Part shown: positions 21,537 through 45,937 of the stretch, one piece after another
Layout: each line of letters starts with the position of its first letter
Numbering within the stretch: position 1 is the stretch's first letter
Assembly (NCBI GenBank): GCA_947184155.2
Contig: CAMXCT020002724.1
Span: 257,001-321,000, forward strand
DNA from: Cladocopium goreaui
Lineage: Eukaryota; Sar; Dinophyceae; Suessiales; Symbiodiniaceae
DNA length: 64,000 nucleotides
Direction of reading: 5' to 3'
Position numbers and translations under genes: made by a program
Notes under the pieces: generated by a model
Seen by the model: only the letters and a program-made list of their open reading frames with translations
What the model was told of the DNA's origin: nothing
Databases searched by the model: none

Positions 21537-22083
21537 NNNNNNNNNNNNNNNNNNNNNNNNNNNNNNNNNNNNNNNNNNNNNNNNNNNNNNNNNNNNNNNN
21601 NNNNNNNNNNNNNNNNNNNNNNNNNNNNNNNNNNNNNNNNNNNNNNNNNNNNNNNNNNNNNNNNNNNNNNNNNNNNNNNNNNNNNNNNNNNNNNNNNNNN
21701 NNNNNNNNNNNNNNNNNNNNNNNNNNNNNNNNNNNNNNNNNNNNNNNNNNNNNNNNNNNNNNNNNNNNNNNNNNNNNNNNNNNNNNNNNNNNNNNNNNNN
21801 NNNNNNNNNNNNNNNNNNNNNNNNNNNNNNNNNNNNNNNNNNNNNNNNNNNNNNNNNNNNNNNNNNNNNNNNNNNNNNNNNNNNNNNNNNNNNNNNNNNN
21901 NNNNNNNNNNNNNNNNNNNNNNNNNNNNNNNNNNNNNNNNNNNNNNNNNNNNNNNNNNNNNNNNNNNNNNNNNNNNNNNNNNNNNNNNNNNNNNNNNNNN
22001 NNNNNNNNNNNNNNNNNNNNNNNNNNNNNNNNNNNNNNNNNNNNNNNNNNNNNNNNNNNNNNNNNNNNNNNNNNNNNNNNNNN
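21537..22083. other. assembly gap, 547 N
   Basis: Run of unknown bases bordered by TATATA on the left. Open frames across it are meaningless. Confidence 1.
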
Positions 22084-35031: not shown

Positions 35032-35547
35032 TTATACAATAACGCCCCGGGAGGAAGTAGATTTAGGGGACCATTTTCTTTGCCCCTGATTGCGCCTCAC
35101 CTGATTGCGCCTGGGGGCTCTATTTCTCCTCCCAAAGGCAGGACCTTGCCTCCTCTCCCTGGCATGCAAAGCCCGATGTGCAGCCTGGGTCATCATCACC
35201 AGGTTGGTCGACATATTGTCGCCTGGGTCGCCATTCCTGTGATGGACCATTTCATGGGGGAGGAGTCTTCTGCCATTGAGGTCCTGCCATAACTGGCGAT
35301 GAAAGAGGACCTTATTGGGATCAGGGCATGGCAACCTGAGGAAAAAATAACCATCAGGATGCCTATGGTGTGGAACCACATCCGACGAAGGTTCCACACT
35401 TCCATCTTCCTGCCTCTCCTCTGTCTCATATTCGGGAAAGTAATCAGACACCAACCCAGTCCCTAGCTCATGGCGTCCCACATAGACCCACCAGCCCACA
35501 TTGACACCAGTCTCCCAATTGGTCATGACAACAAACTCTTGTGCCAT
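35032..35547 (-). CDS. HNH-nuclease-like protein, intronless
   Basis: Single open frame of 171 residues from ATG, with no interruption in a genome where the recognised gene averages about 74 nt per exon. Residues about 83-128 resemble the HNH (HNH_3/AP2-associated) fold: H-R-Q-L-W near 83-87, then L-L-P-H-E-M-V-H-H-R-N-G-D (His102-His103, Asn105), N111, N-L near 115, and a trailing A-A-H-R-A-L-H-A. The tail after residue 130 is Arg-rich, as in DNA-binding proteins. Expected role is metal-dependent DNA cleavage, as in homing or phage-type endonucleases; that is inferred from the motif only. No inverted-repeat ends or transposase partner were seen beside it. It could be a transferred or mobile gene. 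Confidence 0.7.
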   Translation of the reverse strand: MAQEFVVMTNWETGVNVGWWVYVGRHELGTGLVSDYFPEYETEERQEDGSVEPSSDVVPHHRHPDGYFFLRLPCPDPNKVLFHRQLWQDLNGRRLLPHEMVHHRNGDPGDNMSTNLVMMTQAAHRALHARERRQGPAFGRRNRAPRRNQVRRNQGQRKWSPKSTSSRGVIV

Positions 35548-36189
35548 TGCTGCACACAGACAAAGGAGGGGGTGGTAATCACAAAGAGAGCTTAAGATCG
35601 AAAAAGCTGCAGGATATCCAAATCACCATGGTCCTAAGCTCACCATGCCAAAGTGCCATGTCCATGCCCATGCAGTTCACATCATGGCTATGCAGATGAC
35701 ATGTTTCAACCCCAGCTCTTGAACCCCAGCTCTTAAAATCTTTCAACCCCAGCTCTATCAAACCCACCTTGTCTGAGCCAACTTCTCTGAGCCAAAGGCT
35801 CTTTCAACACAACTTTAACCCATGTTATAACATTAAATATACAATATATAAAATGATTTATATGTCAAGGCACCTCATTGTATAAATGATAATCCAATGA
35901 ATATTGATGGGGTGGATGATTTTCCCCATGAAAAAAACGGCCTCGTGGCGTCGAGAATCTGGAACATGTTGCTCGAACAATAGCATGGGCTGTGAACAAA
36001 ATGGTAGTGACACTTCATGATATCACAAAAGTAACAAATATGACATGATATAATGATCATATAATGATATACCAGTAGTACCGCACAAGGCGGTGGCGGA
36101 AGTTTCGAAAATAGGAAACCTATAGGAGAGGTTGGTTGTTGTGAATCAGGGATGGCAGAGCGAATCCACTGATGGACCGAAAGGTGCTT

Positions 36190-38372: not shown

Positions 38373-38785
38373 GCATTGATTGTTCCCGCAATGCAAATGG
38401 GATTGCAAGTGGTGCTGGTGGATGAGTTGCCGATGGAGTTGTGAAGGAAGTCTCGCACGAAATGCGTTTTTGAGAGATAGCAGATGCACGAAACCCTATG
38501 TTTTTCCATACAAAGTGCGTCCCCGAACCTCGATGATCTACCTCTGCGGTGCGACGGGTGCGAGACGGTCTCGTGTGTGGTCGGATCATGGGCGGATCAT
38601 GGGCGGATCATGGTCGGATCGGTTCCGCATTGTAAATGGGGTTTCAACTGTTTTTCGTGCACGTGTGGTCGACAGAATTCCATTGTGATTTGCAACTGTA
38701 GGATCGTTCCCGCAATGTAAATGGGGTTGCAAGTGGTGCTGGTGGATGAGTTGCCGATGGAATTCCATTGTGATTTGCAACTCTA
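38373..38785. repeat. GATCGTTCCCGC satellite, segment 1
   Basis: One long unit (GTTCCCGCAATGCAAATGGG ... GGTCGACAGAATTCCATTGT) plus a short 95-bp unit. Segments at 42525 and 45518 continue the same repeat. It contains tandem GGCGGATCATG sub-repeats. Confidence 0.9.
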
Positions 38786-38999
38786 CAGTTAAGGCCTTTT
38801 GCAGTTATAAGTTAGGTTATAAGTAGGTTATAAGTGCATAGTGAGTTATAACTGTAGTTAGCCTACTTAACGCAGTTATGCAACTGTTCTGTAACTGCTG
38901 TAATTGGACTTATAAGTCCGGTTAAAGCAGTTATAGCAATTACAAAAACAGTTAATAACAGTTATGATGAGGAGGAAAAAGCAGTTATAACAGTTACAA

Positions 39000-39910
39000 A
39001 CAACATCTTTCATTGGTGACATGACGTGGCTTGTTTCGTGTGCGTGTGTTTTCTTACGCAGTGTTTTTTGATTGTTTTCATGGATTTTGACATGTTGTTG
39101 GCTGCGCGCCATGGATTTGTTCTATCATGTTTTTGTTGTTGCATGGATTGTCCACAGTCGCTTGGTTTGGGTCATGGATTGCGTAGCGTGGATTGTTGGG
39201 CTGATTTCTTGCTTGGTGTATGTTATGGATTGTTTATCCTGGTTTCTTGGCTGCCATGTTGTTGCATGCATTGTGATATGTTGCTTGATGTGCGTCATGG
39301 ATTGTGATATGTTGCTTGGTGTACGTCATGGACTGTTTATCATGGTTTCTTGGCTGCCAGGTTGTTACATGGATTGTGATTTGTCGCTTGGTGTGTGTGT
39401 GTCATGGATTGCGTATCATGTTTTCTCGGTCGCTGTGTTACGTGTTGTTGCATTGATCTGATTTGTTGCTTGGTGTAGGTCGTGGATTGGTTTTCATGTT
39501 TTCTTGCTGTGTTGCTGCATGGATTGTGATGTTGTTTGATTGATTTGTGTCGTGGATTGTTCATCATGGTCACCCTGAGTCGCATGGATTGTGAAGTGAT
39601 GTCATGGATTGTGCATCTTTCTTGTTTTGCATGGATTTTGTGGCGTTTGCTGTGGCATATGGATTGCGTTTGGCACTTCAGGTGTTGCGTTTGTTGTAGG
39701 GATTGCGAACGGTTTGCTTGATGTTTGGCATGGGTTGTGTACCAGGTATACCACGATTTTTTGGGTGTGTTGTTGCATGGATTGTGGTTTGATAGTTTGA
39801 TGTAAGTCATGGATTGTGTATCACGGTTTGTCGGAAGCATTTTGATGGATTGTTTTTTCTTGATGTGTGATGTGGGTAGCAAGGAGTTTGTCGCGGTTTT
39901 TGCAAACAAT
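39000..39910. repeat. CATGGATTGT repeat block inside element A
   Basis: More than 20 occurrences of CATGGATTG with spacers such as TGTTGCTTGGTGTACGT and TCATGGTTTCTTGGCTGCC, spaced about 30-70 bp. Frames on both strands are Cys/Met/Trp-rich and look like repeat products. Confidence 0.85.
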
Positions 39911-40299
39911 GAATAGCAATTTGACGTTTATGTTATGTTTATTGCTGAGTGTGTCGTGTTGATTGTGACTGACTGTTGTTTGTCCTGCACGGATTTTGTT
40001 TTGTTTCCTGAAGTGTTTCATGGCTTTTGTTGTTTTTGCTGGCGCTTGGCATGGCATGTTGTTTACTATAAAGGATGGAAAAATAAAAGGATGGAAAAAA
40101 CAATACATTTTCATCTTCATCAATATAAAAGGATGGAAAATAATAAATTAAAAATACATTTTACTTTCATGAAGGTTAACTATTTACATGAAACAAAACA
40201 AAATATAGTTGAATTAAACAGAAACACAATAATTGAACGTATTTTTGGACATTAGCAAGGTTTAGGTAATACTGAAAGACAATTAGCTAGGTTTAGTTC

Positions 40300-41035
40300 A
40301 GGCTGAAAGATAAAGATGTTCAGTGTTTTTATGAACTTAACTAGGTTTAGTTCAGATTGGGAGAAATATAAATTCAGAAAATTTCTGACCTTAACTAGGT
40401 TTAGTTCAGGCTGGGGGAGAGATAAGTTCAGAAAATTTCTGAACTTAACTAGGTTTAGTTCAGGCTGGAAGAGAGATAAGTTCAGAAAATTTCTGAACTT
40501 AACTAGGTTTAGTTCAGGCTGGGAGAGAGATAAGTTCAGAAAATTTCTGAACTTAACTAGGTTTAGTTCAGGCTGGAACTTAACTAGGTTTAGTTCAGGC
40601 TGGAAGAGAGATAAGTTCAGAAATTTTCTGAACTTAACATATTTTAAATTAAACTATAATTATGCTAAGTTCAGAAAATTTCTGAACTTAACTAGGTTTA
40701 GTTCAGGCTGGAAGAGAGATAAGTTCAGAAAATTTCTGAACTTAACTAGGTTTAGTTCAGGCTGGGGGAGAGATAAGTTCAGAAAATTTCTGAACTTAAC
40801 TAGGTTTAGTTCAGACTGGAAGAGATATAAGTTCAGAAAATTTCTGAACTTAACTAGGTTTAGTTCAGGCTGGGAGAGAGATAAGTTCAGAAAAATTCTG
40901 AACTTAACTAGGTTTAGTTCAGACTGGAAGAGATATAAGTTCAGAAAAAATCTGAACTTAACTGGGTTTAGTTCAGGCTGGGAGGGAGATAAGTTCAGAA
41001 AATTTCTGAACTTAACTAGGTTTAGTTTAGACTAC
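40300..41035. repeat. 54-bp array inside element A
   Basis: About 13 copies of a 54-bp unit containing the palindrome TTCAGAAAATTTCTGAA and AACTAGGTTTAGTTCAGGCT. Because 54 is a multiple of 3, an open frame of 240 codons repeats FRKFLNLTRFSSGWERDK. Copies decay to about 41290. Confidence 0.95.
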
Positions 41036-41799
41036 TAGGCAGATAAGTTCAAAAGATTTCCAAAATCTTAGCTAAGTTTAGTTTAGACTGTGGGCGACAT
41101 AAATTCAGAATTTTTTTGAACTTCACTAGGTTTAGTTCAGATTAAGATAGAAATAAATTCAAAAAATTAAAGTTTAATTCAAATTAGTATCAGTACAAGT
41201 TCAAATTGTTTTTCTTCACTTAGCTGGGTTTAGTTAGGCTAGAATATAGATAAATTCAGAAAAACAATTTCTGAACCTATATATGTTGAATTCCAACTGC
41301 AAAATGCTGTTTTTTTTTTTAAAAAATAAATATAAATATGTACAAATTATTATAACTAAATATTTTCTGAAACTAGGATTCTTTAACTCATTTAATTAAA
41401 TTTAATTGAACAATATTTCTATTTTGTAACTTTTCGAAACTGATATATTAATCAAATGTTAAGTTGTATGTTTTTTTGTATTTTAAATTTTTTGAAACAC
41501 ACAATAAATTTGGAAAATAAAATAAACCTACACTGAATATGAATATTGTTTAAAAAATATAATTGTTTTTAATAATCAATTTGATATTTCTTAAAAAATC
41601 AATACTAACATGTCATGTTACAAATAAAGGTTGGAAACAACACAATCAATAGTTGCATCTATTGATTGTTCATATTATTCTGTATGCATTTAACAAAATG
41701 CTGCGTTGTTTTCAATGCATGTTCCAAATGAGTTGTTACAACGTAAGAAAACACATTTGTTTAATCAGATACAAATCGATGTGAAATACATGTGCACCC

Positions 41800-42009
41800 A
41801 TGCCATTGCAAGATACATTACAAGATTTGTTTGGCGACAGCCGTCATCGCGATTTGCTCTGCTGCATCCAGCCACTTTGGCAGCTTGTGTTGGTGCAACG
41901 TGGTTTCATTTGGAAAGCGACGGCTCGTACCTCTGCTTGCGTTGAAAAATGCCTGCGTCTAATGAGGCTGGCTGCTGCGTGCTACAAGTTGAAGCTAGTT
42001 CAGGTCTAA
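41800..42009 (+). CDS. candidate small ORF inside element A
   Basis: 69-codon frame starting MPLQDTLQDLFGDSRHRDLL and rich in Leu, Cys and Arg. Composition is closer to coding than the surrounding AT-rich repeats. No family recognised. It could be a fragment captured by the element, or chance. Confidence 0.25.
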   Translation: MPLQDTLQDLFGDSRHRDLLCCIQPLWQLVLVQRGFIWKATARTSACVEKCLRLMRLAAACYKLKLVQV

Positions 42010-42524
42010 AAGTATTTCAGCATATGGCCAAACAATCTCTTTGCCTGGAACTGACTTAAGAGGAAGGGTCTTGTGCTGCAGCTCGTGATATGTGCATGTC
42101 ATGGATTGTGCTCGCGACAGCCGTGGTTATCATGGATTGCAACATAATGTGTGTGGATGCACTAGTTGCAGGAAGACTGCAGGAAAACATATAGAATCAA
42201 ATTCTCCAGCTTCATGATTGCACTTGTCATGATTCATGTTTGGTTGCTGAGGTTTCCTTTCCACAGCTCAAATGATACCGCGAAAGTGGTTATCTACATG
42301 CTTTCTTCCCAGCATTTCCTCATTTCCGAACAGTTCTAACAGTTACAAAATGAGACAAAAAACAATTATAACAGTTACAAAAACAGTTATACCAGTTATA
42401 AGTAAGACTTATAACTGGTCAGATCACGACTTATAACTGTTAAAATAACTGTTATAAGTAGCTTATAACTGTTACTTATAACTGTAAGTAGCAGTTCAGT
42501 TATAACTGTAAAAGGCCTTAACTG

Positions 42525-42987
42525 TAGGATCGTTCCCGCAATGCAAATGGGATTGCAAGTGGTGCTGGTGGATGAGTTGCCGATGGAGTTGTGAAGGAAG
42601 TCTCGCACGAAATGCGTTTTTGAGAGATAGCAGATGCACGAAACCCTATGTTTTTCCATACAAAGTCCGTCCCCGAACGTCGATGATCTACCTCTGCTGT
42701 GCGACGGGTGCGAGACGGTCTCGTGTGTGGTCGGATCATGTTCGGATCATGTTCGGATCGGTCTCGGATCATGCTCGGATCGGTTCCGCATTGTAAATGG
42801 GGTTTCAACTGTTTTTCGTGCATGTGTGGTCGACAGAATTCCATTGTGATTTGCAACTGTAGGATCGTTCCCGCAATGTAAATGGGATTGCAAGTGGTGC
42901 TGGTGGATGAGTTGCAGATGGAATTCCATTGTGATTTGCAACTCTAGGATCGTTCCCTCACTGTAAATGGGATTGCAAGTGGTGCTG
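42525..42987. repeat. GATCGTTCCCGC satellite, segment 2
   Basis: One long unit, one short unit and the start of a third unit that is cut at GGTGCTG by element B. It contains TTCGGATCATG sub-repeats. Confidence 0.92.
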
Positions 42988-43229
42988 CTAAGACCACAAA
43001 ATGAAGATATTTTCACTTTAGGCACTTAATGAAGATATTAGTAGTTATATGAACTTATTATAGAAGTGTTTTTCTCTATTTTTACTTATTTTCACTTATT
43101 TTTCAATGTTTTTTTGATGATCAGAATTGATTATAGACGATGCATTTTTCTGTTATATATTTTTTGAAAATAGTTGTCGACCTTTTTGTTTCCTTTGGAA
43201 TATTTTTTCTTGCCTTTTTTTCATTGTTT

Positions 43230-43440
43230 TTTTCATTCTTTTCAGGCATCATCCTTTTAGAAATCACCCTTTTCAGGAATTATCCTTTTCAGGACTTATC
43301 CTTTTCAGGAATTTTTTATTCAGAATGAATCCTTTTCAGGAACTATCCTTAACAGGAATCTTTCTATTCAGATTGATTTCATTTTCAGGAACAATCCTTT
43401 TCAGGAATTATCTTCTACAGGAAATGGTTCTTCTACAGGA
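43230..43440. repeat. CCTTTTCAGGAAT irregular repeat in element B
   Basis: About ten variants of TCCTTTTCAGGAATTATC, related in motif (CAGGAA) to the 47-bp array further right. Confidence 0.7.
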
Positions 43441-43929
43441 ATATGCGCGGCTGCGAGTGACACAAAGAATCTTGAAGTACATCTGTGGAGAAATCATTCA
43501 GAGGCAAAAGGAAAAAAACATATAAAGGATGCTTCTTGGAAAGAACAATTGCTCTTTTGATGTGTCTTCTTCAATTGTATACGACTGCCCAGAATGAGAT
43601 CTTTCACAAAATGAGGCTTCGGTTACTACTTCCAAACTACATAATTCAGGGATGAAGATGGATACCTGATTTGGAAAATATTCTATTATATTTTTTTGTT
43701 GGTAAAAGTTTTAAAGCTAGCTGGCTTGCTTTTTGTTTTGAAAATGTATTTTCTATAATTGCTATTTTTGTTTTATTGTTCATATTGTTCTACAATTTAC
43801 TTTCTTTTGATTTCGCATACTTTGTTCATACGGTTTTTTCTCAATTTTTGCTGAGATTATTATGATTTGCTACATACTTGGTATTATAAATACTTTGTAT
43901 ATTTACTTATCCTTTTTTTCTCTATAAAT

Positions 43930-44400
43930 ATTTTCTGAATTCTCTGAATTCTCTGAATTTTTTGACTTTTTTGAATTTTTTGAATTTTCTGAATTTTCTG
44001 AATTTTCTGAATTTTTTGAATTTTCTGAATTTTCTGAATTTTCTGAATTTCCTGAATTTCCTGAATTTTCTGAAATTTCTGAATTTTCTGAATTTTCTGA
44101 AATTTCTGAATTTTCTGAATTTTCTGAATTTTCTGAATTTTCTGAATTGTTTTCCTTTTAATTTAAATTGTAAATTCTGAATTTTCTGAATTTTCTGGGT
44201 TTCTGAATTTTCTGAGTTTTCTGAATTTTCTGAAATTTCTGAATTTTATGATTTTTCTGAATTTTCTGAAATTTCTGAAATTTCTGAATTTTCTGAAATT
44301 TCTGAAATTTCTGAGTTTTCTGAATTTTCTGAAATTTCTGAGTTTTCTGAATTTTCTGAATTTTTTGAATTTTCTGAATTTTCTGAATTTTCTGAATTCT
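43930..44400. repeat. 9-bp array TTTTCTGAA in element B
   Basis: Around 45 copies of TTTTCTGAA/TTTCTGAAA. In-frame translation is Phe-Leu-Asn repeats, which I treat as an artefact. Confidence 0.96.
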
Positions 44401-44410
44401 ATAAACTTTC

Positions 44411-45115
44411 CTTTCCAGGAAGTATCCTGCAGAGAACTATTCCCTACAAAATTTTTCCTGTTCCAGGAAGTATCCTGCAGAGAACTATTCCCTACAATTT
44501 TTTCCCTTTCCAGGAAGTATCCTGCAGAGAACTATTCCCTACACAATTTTTCCTTTCCAGGAAGTATCCTGCAGAGAACTATTCCCTACAAAATTTTTCC
44601 TTTCCAGGAAGTATCCTGCCGAGAACTATTCCCTACAATTTTTTTCCTTTCCAGGAAGTATCCTGCAGAGAACTATTCCCTATACAATTTTTCCTTTCCA
44701 GGAAGTATCCTGCCGAGAACTATTCCCTACAATTTTTTTCCTTTCCAGGAAGTATCCTGCAGAGAACTATTCCCTACACAATTTTTCCTTTCCAGGAAGT
44801 ATCCTGCAGAGAACTATTCCCTACAATTTTTTTCCTTTCCAGGAAGTATCCTGCAGAGAACTATTCCCTACAAAATTTTTCCTTTCCAGGAAGTATCCTG
44901 CAGAGAACTATTCCCTACACAATTTTTCCTTTCCACGAAGTATCCTGCAGAGAACTATTCCCTACATTTTTTTTCCTTTCCAGGAAGTATCCTGCAGAGA
45001 ACTATTCCCTACAAAATTTTTCCTTTCCAGGAAATATCCTGCAGAGAACTATTCCCTACAATTTTTTTCCTTTTCAGGAAGTATCCTGCAGAGAAATTGT
45101 CCCTACATTTTTTTT
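44411..45115. repeat. 47-bp array in element B
   Basis: About 15 copies of a 47-48-bp unit: CTTTCCAGGAAGTATCCTGC, AGAGAACTATTCCCTACA and a T run. Very homogeneous until the last two copies. Confidence 0.97.
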
Positions 45116-45517
45116 TCCTGCCATTTTATTTTCCAAATAGGCGCCTTCAGAGAATTGTTCTTTAGCAGCATATTCCTGTTCAGGAAGGTTTCTTCAGAAA
45201 AGTAGTGCTCTGAGACAATATTGTTCCGTCGAAAATCAACATTCCTGTGAATCTATCAAGCACACATAAAAATCAAATTTCACTTCTTATCACTTATTTT
45301 CGCTTATTTTGGCTTATTTTTGACTAATATTCTACTATATTTGCTTATATTTTCCTTATTATGTTATAAGTTCACCTAAAAATTTAGTGGAACTTATAAC
45401 AAAATATTTTTGAAAAAACAATTTGAACAAGATATTAGAAGGATAATAGTAACTTATAGTATACTTATAAATTCATTAAGTGCCTAAAGTGCAAATATTT
45501 GCATTTTGTGGTCTTAG

Positions 45518-45837
45518 TGGTGGATGAGTTGCCGATGGAGTTTTGAAGGAAGTCTCGCACGAAATGCGTTTTTGAGAGATAGCAGATGCACGAAAGCCTA
45601 TGTTTTTACATACAAAGTGTGTCCACGAACCTCGATGATCTACCTCTGCTGTGCGACGGGTGCGAGACGGTCTCGTGTGTGGTCGGATCATGTTCGGATC
45701 ATGTTCGGATCGGTCTCGGATCATGCTCGGATCGGTTCCGCATTGTAAATGGGGTTTCAACTGTTTTTCGTGCATGTGTGGTCGACAGAATTCCATTGTG
45801 ATTTGCAACTGTAGGATCGTTCCCGCATTGTAAATGG
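45518..45837. repeat. GATCGTTCCCGC satellite, segment 3
   Basis: Continues the unit interrupted by element B, and runs into the second assembly gap. Confidence 0.92.
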
Positions 45838-45937
45838 NNNNNNNNNNNNNNNNNNNNNNNNNNNNNNNNNNNNNNNNNNNNNNNNNNNNNNNNNNNNNNN
45901 NNNNNNNNNNNNNNNNNNNNNNNNNNNNNNNNNNNNN
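45838..45937. other. assembly gap, 100 N
   Basis: Exactly 100 N, a conventional placeholder for a gap of unknown size. The true satellite length here is unknown. Confidence 1.

Follow-up and report, generated by a model that had tools for sequence, protein, structure and literature searches.

Among described transposons, the nearest parallel in design to the element reported here (element A) appears to be the Tetris/DAIBAM system of Drosophila virilis, in which, as described in the relevant part of its source, an element that appears to be non-autonomous and contains tandem repeats internally has the last part of its ends in common with a miniature element (PMC4079207). In the same account Tetris is foldback-like and carries its repeats inside the inverted ends, whereas element A has 15-bp ends and a central array. 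In target choice, element A and its relatives are like Sleeping Beauty, as characterized in the sections of two reports that treat its target sites: CAGT ends, a 2-bp duplication, TA as the commonest target, and CA/TG next (PMC5801840, PMC7987939). A re-analysis of one Sleeping Beauty screen put non-TA insertions at about 1.4%, for which CA and TG were the favored sites; two validated sites showed perfect duplications, and others showed none (PMC5801840). Of the matched duplications here, by comparison, six of 16 are CA or TG on both sides. The Sleeping Beauty cases were later judged to be mostly one-sided and aberrant, with one cited data set having 54% of its positions at non-TA sites (PMC7987939). 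A natural mixture of TA, CA, and TG duplications seems unusual. Like the mariner Mboumar, which by its published account resides in ant satellite DNA, element A is a transposon lying in a satellite; unlike in Mboumar, no transposase has been recognized in it (PMC2581405). The introners of Symbiodinium microadriaticum, as reported in the part of the study that describes their structure, and the mini-elements described below are both short, have inverted ends, and occur in a eukaryotic genome, but the introners make 4-bp duplications and the mini-elements 2-bp ones (PMC9860276), a difference in length that rules the introners out. Among the papers listed by our literature searches, we recognized no description matching the element A family.

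The window is a 64-kb stretch (C2724:257001-321000) of the Cladocopium goreaui genome (1.17 Gb, 6,202 contigs), which was searched for further copies. Element A occupies positions 38786 to 42524 of the window on the forward strand (3,739 bp). Its ends are exact 15-bp inverses, CAGTTAAGGCCTTTT at 38786 to 38800 (forward) and its inverse at 42510 to 42524 (reverse), with no other exact match to CAGTTAAGGCCTTTT in the window. Flank reading and comparison with empty units place a 2-bp target duplication, TA, at 38784 to 38785 on the left and at 42525 to 42526 on the right. The satellite around the element includes a recurrent 300-bp stretch (window positions 38416, 42566, and 45518). When 30 bases of each flank were joined and one TA was dropped, the 60-base junction matched an unbroken satellite unit with a single TA at 42917 to 42976 (forward strand) in 57 of 60 bases (three mismatches), and the variant AACTCTA is common to both. 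Units at 42832 and 38671 matched with four and five mismatches in 60, respectively, and a fourth matching unit, at 45784, runs into Ns. The window has two N runs (21537 to 22083 and 45838 to 45937), the second of which starts within a satellite unit. Because the joined flanks match intact satellite units, the empty site is present as a paralogous unit and not as an orthologous empty allele. Element A is confirmed as a genuine inverted-end insertion, and two proposals of an earlier, sequence-only reading of the window, that the ends are inverted and that excision restores the intact satellite unit, are upheld.

On its left, element A begins with an inverted end and about 200 bp of AGTTATA/TATAACT repeats. 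A CATGGATTG-rich block follows, then a 54-bp array lying between two AT-rich stretches, and finally a unique block and the subterminal region of the right side. The subterminal repeats, at 38786 to 38990 (forward) and 42330 to 42524 (reverse), are conserved between copies. Thirteen of the 14 AGTTATA-type motifs in the window copy are found within 220 bp of an end, compared with a mean of 0.39 and a maximum of 4 in 2,000 first-order simulated end sequences. The three central features lie on the forward strand. The CATGGATTG-rich block (38991 to 40055) is a degenerate tandem repeat, 96 to 98% identical among the young copies compared (see below) and 76 to 82% identical in old ones over part of its length. 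The 54-bp array (40283 to 41145) has about 16 units with a palindromic arm, GTTCAGAAAATTTCTGAAC, and the unique block (41796 to 42330) shows 97 to 99% identity among the young copies compared. As had been read from the window, the cargo consists of tandem repeats, namely the CATGGATTG-rich block and the 54-bp array, which has a hairpin arm.

Genome-wide, the exact 15-mer CAGTTAAGGCCTTTT has 12 matches, compared with seven for the reversed control, and on its own it is weak evidence for further copies; three of the 12 are not element A, with those on contigs C768 and C1161 looking like related ends and that on C1510 like chance. Strong evidence comes from paired ends and from matches to longer end regions: the 195-bp right end has at least 10 matches and the 205-bp left end at least 12, three of which are short and correspond to subterminal repeats on the reverse strand. 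The family is found in at least 11 places, which we count as nine independent insertions: the window, C1735 (two copies), C5786, C5754, C3424, C2516, C413/C4848, C6038, and C1446. The sequences on C413 and C4848 are 99.3% identical over 7.2 kb and were counted as one insertion, and the two C1735 copies (L021 and L022), about 21 kb apart, have both flanks in common and belong to a duplicated segment. One end only was found for C5754, which runs into Ns, and for C6038 and C1446; the left inverted end is lost in C413/C4848 and in C2516. The sequence-only reading had staked its case on there being a second copy with the same ends, and these nine insertions supply it.

The young two-ended copies measure 3,739, 4,346, 4,419, and 7,375 bp, and the copies in C413, C3424, and C2516 about 2.1, 10.1, and 11.0 kb, respectively. 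Over the right 730 bp, the window, C5754, C5786, and C1735 copies diverge by 0.8 to 4.1%. Divergence from the young copies is 13 to 22% for C3424, C413, C2516, and C1446 (326 to 712 bases compared), which differ among themselves by up to 23%, and 9 to 10% over the left end for C6038. The family is therefore composed of a young wave (about 1 to 4% apart) and older copies. Within the young wave, the 54-bp array varies from about 16 units in the window to about 29 (L021) and 27 (L022) in C1735 and to about 4.5 kb in C5786, where it is interrupted by a second copy of the neighboring block. Outside the array, the blocks of the C1735 and C5786 copies are 96 to 99% identical to those of the window copy, except for the second AT-rich stretch (89 to 91%). 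Because the non-array blocks are nearly identical while the arrays differ, array length changes faster than the remaining sequence.

Individual copies have further peculiarities. Both ends of the C5786 copy (L041, 533 to 7907) read CAGTGAAGG and not CAGTTAAGG; the two inverted ends thus carry an identical base change, as though one had been copied from the other. The C3424 copy (L043) contains a TGTGTGTAAAAGCGTC-type 16-bp array, and similar-looking repeat-coded frames occur beside the C6038 copy (L028).

The long open frames in element A, at 39340 to 39927 (reverse) and 40307 to 41038 (forward), overlie tandem repeats, and inspection by eye recognized no transposase among the open frames of the other copies. 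A Pfam scan of five frames from the two 10- to 11-kb relatives, C3424 and C2516, gave no match, and both were rejected as candidate autonomous copies; the surplus length of the C3424 copy includes several unrelated tandem arrays. The earlier remark that no transposase is evident accordingly extends to all of the frames examined. Inverted ends, a target duplication, several copies, and no recognized transposase together characterize element A as a non-autonomous inverted-end DNA transposon. In the element's surroundings, a Pfam scan of 10 flanking frames found only a phosphoesterase, which is outside the element, and the 64-kb window had no Rfam match at gathering scores. The window also has no match to the dinoflagellate spliced-leader pattern, which need not occur there. 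An open frame at 35032 to 35622 (reverse), some 2.8 kb ahead of the point where the satellite is matched at 38378, matches the HNH_3 endonuclease profile (E = 4.6e-7).

The ends of element A have relatives on much smaller elements. A whole-genome search with the 25-base end pattern, allowing up to three mismatches, returned at least 83 sites, compared with none for the reversed 25-mer. By position, 13 of the 83 belong to the element A family, and 39 of the other 70 are exactly CAGTTATGGCCCTTAACAGTTATAA by hand count. The commonest first 25 bases of these mini-elements differ from the right end of element A at three positions (22 of 25 match). Six inverted end pairs are 99 to 106 bp apart, although three of the six represent one duplicated insertion. 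We read 20 regions of 301 to 421 bp each, covering 26 of the 70 sites outside element A: in 14 of them the mini-element has two ends, and in the other six a single end is recognizable. Twelve of the 14 are independent, since those in C1158, C1347, and C1542 are one duplicated insertion. The two-ended mini-elements in these regions are 99 to 124 bp long, with one exception of 277 bp. An inverted-pair scan of 299,810 mutually overlapping bases added four more (two in L001, one in L014/L015, and one in L046); its remaining pairs are weak or fall within element A ends, and shuffled sequences gave 0.3 pairs per 64 kb.

Target-site duplications were tabulated for 20 independent two-ended insertions, four of element A type and 16 mini-elements. 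Sixteen of the 20 have matching 2-bp flanks (10 TA, 4 CA, and 2 TG), compared with 7.6 expected by re-pairing (permutation test, P about 4e-5), and the six non-TA matches are also in excess (permutation test, P about 1.4e-4). The non-TA duplications are TG/TG in the C1735 copies, CA/CA in C3424, and CA or TG in four of the 16 mini-elements; two of the six come from insertions in which one end was placed by hand (C768a and the right end of C3424). Because of these hand placements, and because some ends are mutated at their outermost bases, we retested a strict subset of 13 insertions with intact outermost end bases, from which degraded or hand-placed ends were excluded. Ten of the 13 match (6 TA, 2 CA, and 2 TG), compared with 5.0 expected (P = 0.003), and four of these matches are non-TA (P = 0.009). 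The excess of matched 2-bp flanks holds, and is weaker, in the strict subset. The TA duplication proposed from the window therefore stands at the element A site, which has TA on both sides, and falls as a rule of the family; likewise, the predicted copies with the same ends exist as independent insertions, but their flanks are not confined to TA.

The four remaining insertions have unlike flanks (TG/TC, TA/TG, TA/TT, and TG/TA). No matching 3-, 5-, or 6-bp repeats flank any of the 20 insertions, and the sole 4-bp match, TATA at C5786, includes TA. Pyrimidine-purine steps make up 20 of the 20 left flanks and 18 of the 20 right flanks, compared with a dinucleotide background of 24% in the window. 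Insertions with a missing end or that duplicate another insertion were kept out of the table (C1735b, C413/C4848, C2516, C5754, C6038, C1446, L058, L059, L062, L064, L066, L068, L002, and L052/L053). Among their single readable flanks, nine are pyrimidine-purine (TA in C5754, L002, L059, and L064; TG in C6038 and C2516; CA in L062 and L068; and CG in C1446) and three are not (GA in L058, AG in L066, and AG in C413/C4848, where the end itself is mutated). The sample is small and was picked by end similarity, and it therefore favors better-preserved copies.

How these insertions arose can be explained in several ways. That element A sits in a satellite, that C1735 carries its two copies in a duplicated segment, and that an array could mislead assembly would all suit a satellite or segmental-duplication rearrangement, or an assembly artifact, in place of a transposon; given that the same end regions recur in nine independent contexts, that 2-bp duplications match, and that a paralogous satellite unit is intact, we regard this as very improbable. 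An ordinary TA-only Tc1/mariner family, whose CA/TG flanks would stem from later mutation or misplaced ends, deserves more attention and is still unlikely. CAGT-starting termini are a general feature of Tc1/mariner, and the ends here begin CAGTT/CAGTG. They can be compared with the ACTG/CAGT end of Sleeping Beauty, as given in the part of PMC7987939 that describes it. The genome also has DDE_3 genes, and TA makes up 10 of the 16 matched duplications. Yet 10 of 16 falls short of the 2-bp TA duplication by which Tc1/mariner is recognized, and every two-sided CA/CA or TG/TG pair would require the identical change twice, in six independent insertions (four in the strict subset). Moreover, the non-TA insertions include the C1735 copies, which are young and have exact ends. 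A Tc1/mariner family defined by TA alone is ruled out by the CA/CA and TG/TG copies.

The main rival is a mobilizing enzyme of the CMC type (CACTA/Mirage/Chapaev), or of another non-Tc1 superfamily, for which short variable duplications would be ordinary; it overlaps with our preferred explanation, and we consider it possible, although doubtful. Dense subterminal repeats and a large variable cargo are typical of CACTA, and element A has both, together with short inverted ends. The terminal motif of CMC elements is CACTA/CACTG, however, and the ends here are CAGTT or CAGTG. In the portion of a published paper that covers duplication lengths, CMC target-site duplications are 2 to 4 bp, which the 2-bp duplications here fit (PMC4482050). 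The same source gives AT within A|AT|T as the PHIS/ISL2EU duplication and 5 to 8 bp as that of hAT (PMC4482050). PHIS/ISL2EU is ruled out by duplications of TA, CA, and TG instead of AT, and hAT by the lack of 5- or 6-bp repeats in all 20 insertions and of any 7- or 8-bp repeat seen by eye in the 8-base flanks.

We favor, with a probability of about 0.78, a cut-and-paste family that is moved in trans by a putative transposase making a 2-bp stagger at TA, CA, or TG. Element A would be a non-autonomous cut-and-paste DNA transposon whose 15-bp inverted repeats and about 200 bp of AGTTATA-type repeats may serve as a binding platform for a transposase encoded elsewhere. The mini-elements of about 100 bp may be mobilized by the same transposase or by a sister enzyme, as suggested by the similarity of the ends at 22 of 25 bases. 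The transposase would excise the element and join its ends, with a stagger of 2 bp, to a flexible pyrimidine-purine step, most often TA and often CA/TG, and gap repair would then create the 2-bp duplication. The 54-bp array probably lengthens and shortens through recombination or slippage, which would yield sizes from 3.7 to 7.4 kb among near-identical copies. A mechanism like that of Tc1/mariner, with relaxed target choice, is the leading reading of these data. The genome has eight DDE_3 profile matches. Matching frames on C4, C2234, C3580, and C1410 are 397 or 415 aa long, and four of 397 aa (two on C4 and one each on C2234 and C3580) score equally. None of the eight is near the listed ends (up to three mismatches), the nearest being about 29 kb away, on C1410. 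Given that the family does not hold to TA and that no link ties a DDE gene to its ends, we do not file element A in Tc1/mariner.

The same satellite holds a second inverted-end element, element B (42988 to 45517), with imperfect ends of about 44 bp that start with CTAAGACCACAAAATG and are unrelated to those of element A. It is flanked by TG/TG relative to the intact satellite unit, a 2-bp pyrimidine-purine duplication, and its cargo includes 9-bp and 47-bp tandem arrays. We tentatively raise the idea, which we think possible but less likely than not, that an undescribed transposase lineage reads the pyrimidine-purine step itself (TA, CA/TG, and perhaps CG) and serves at least two types of ends, those of element A and the mini-elements and the unrelated ones of element B.

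Transposons are assigned to superfamilies partly by their target duplications, with TA regarded as a hallmark of Tc1/mariner. If a natural family duplicates TA, CA, and TG, then either the rule of TA can be relaxed or some elements flanked by TA are being misfiled. In addition, ends common to 100-bp mini-elements and to multi-kilobase carriers of arrays show a way in which tandem arrays can ride on a transposon and spread with it.
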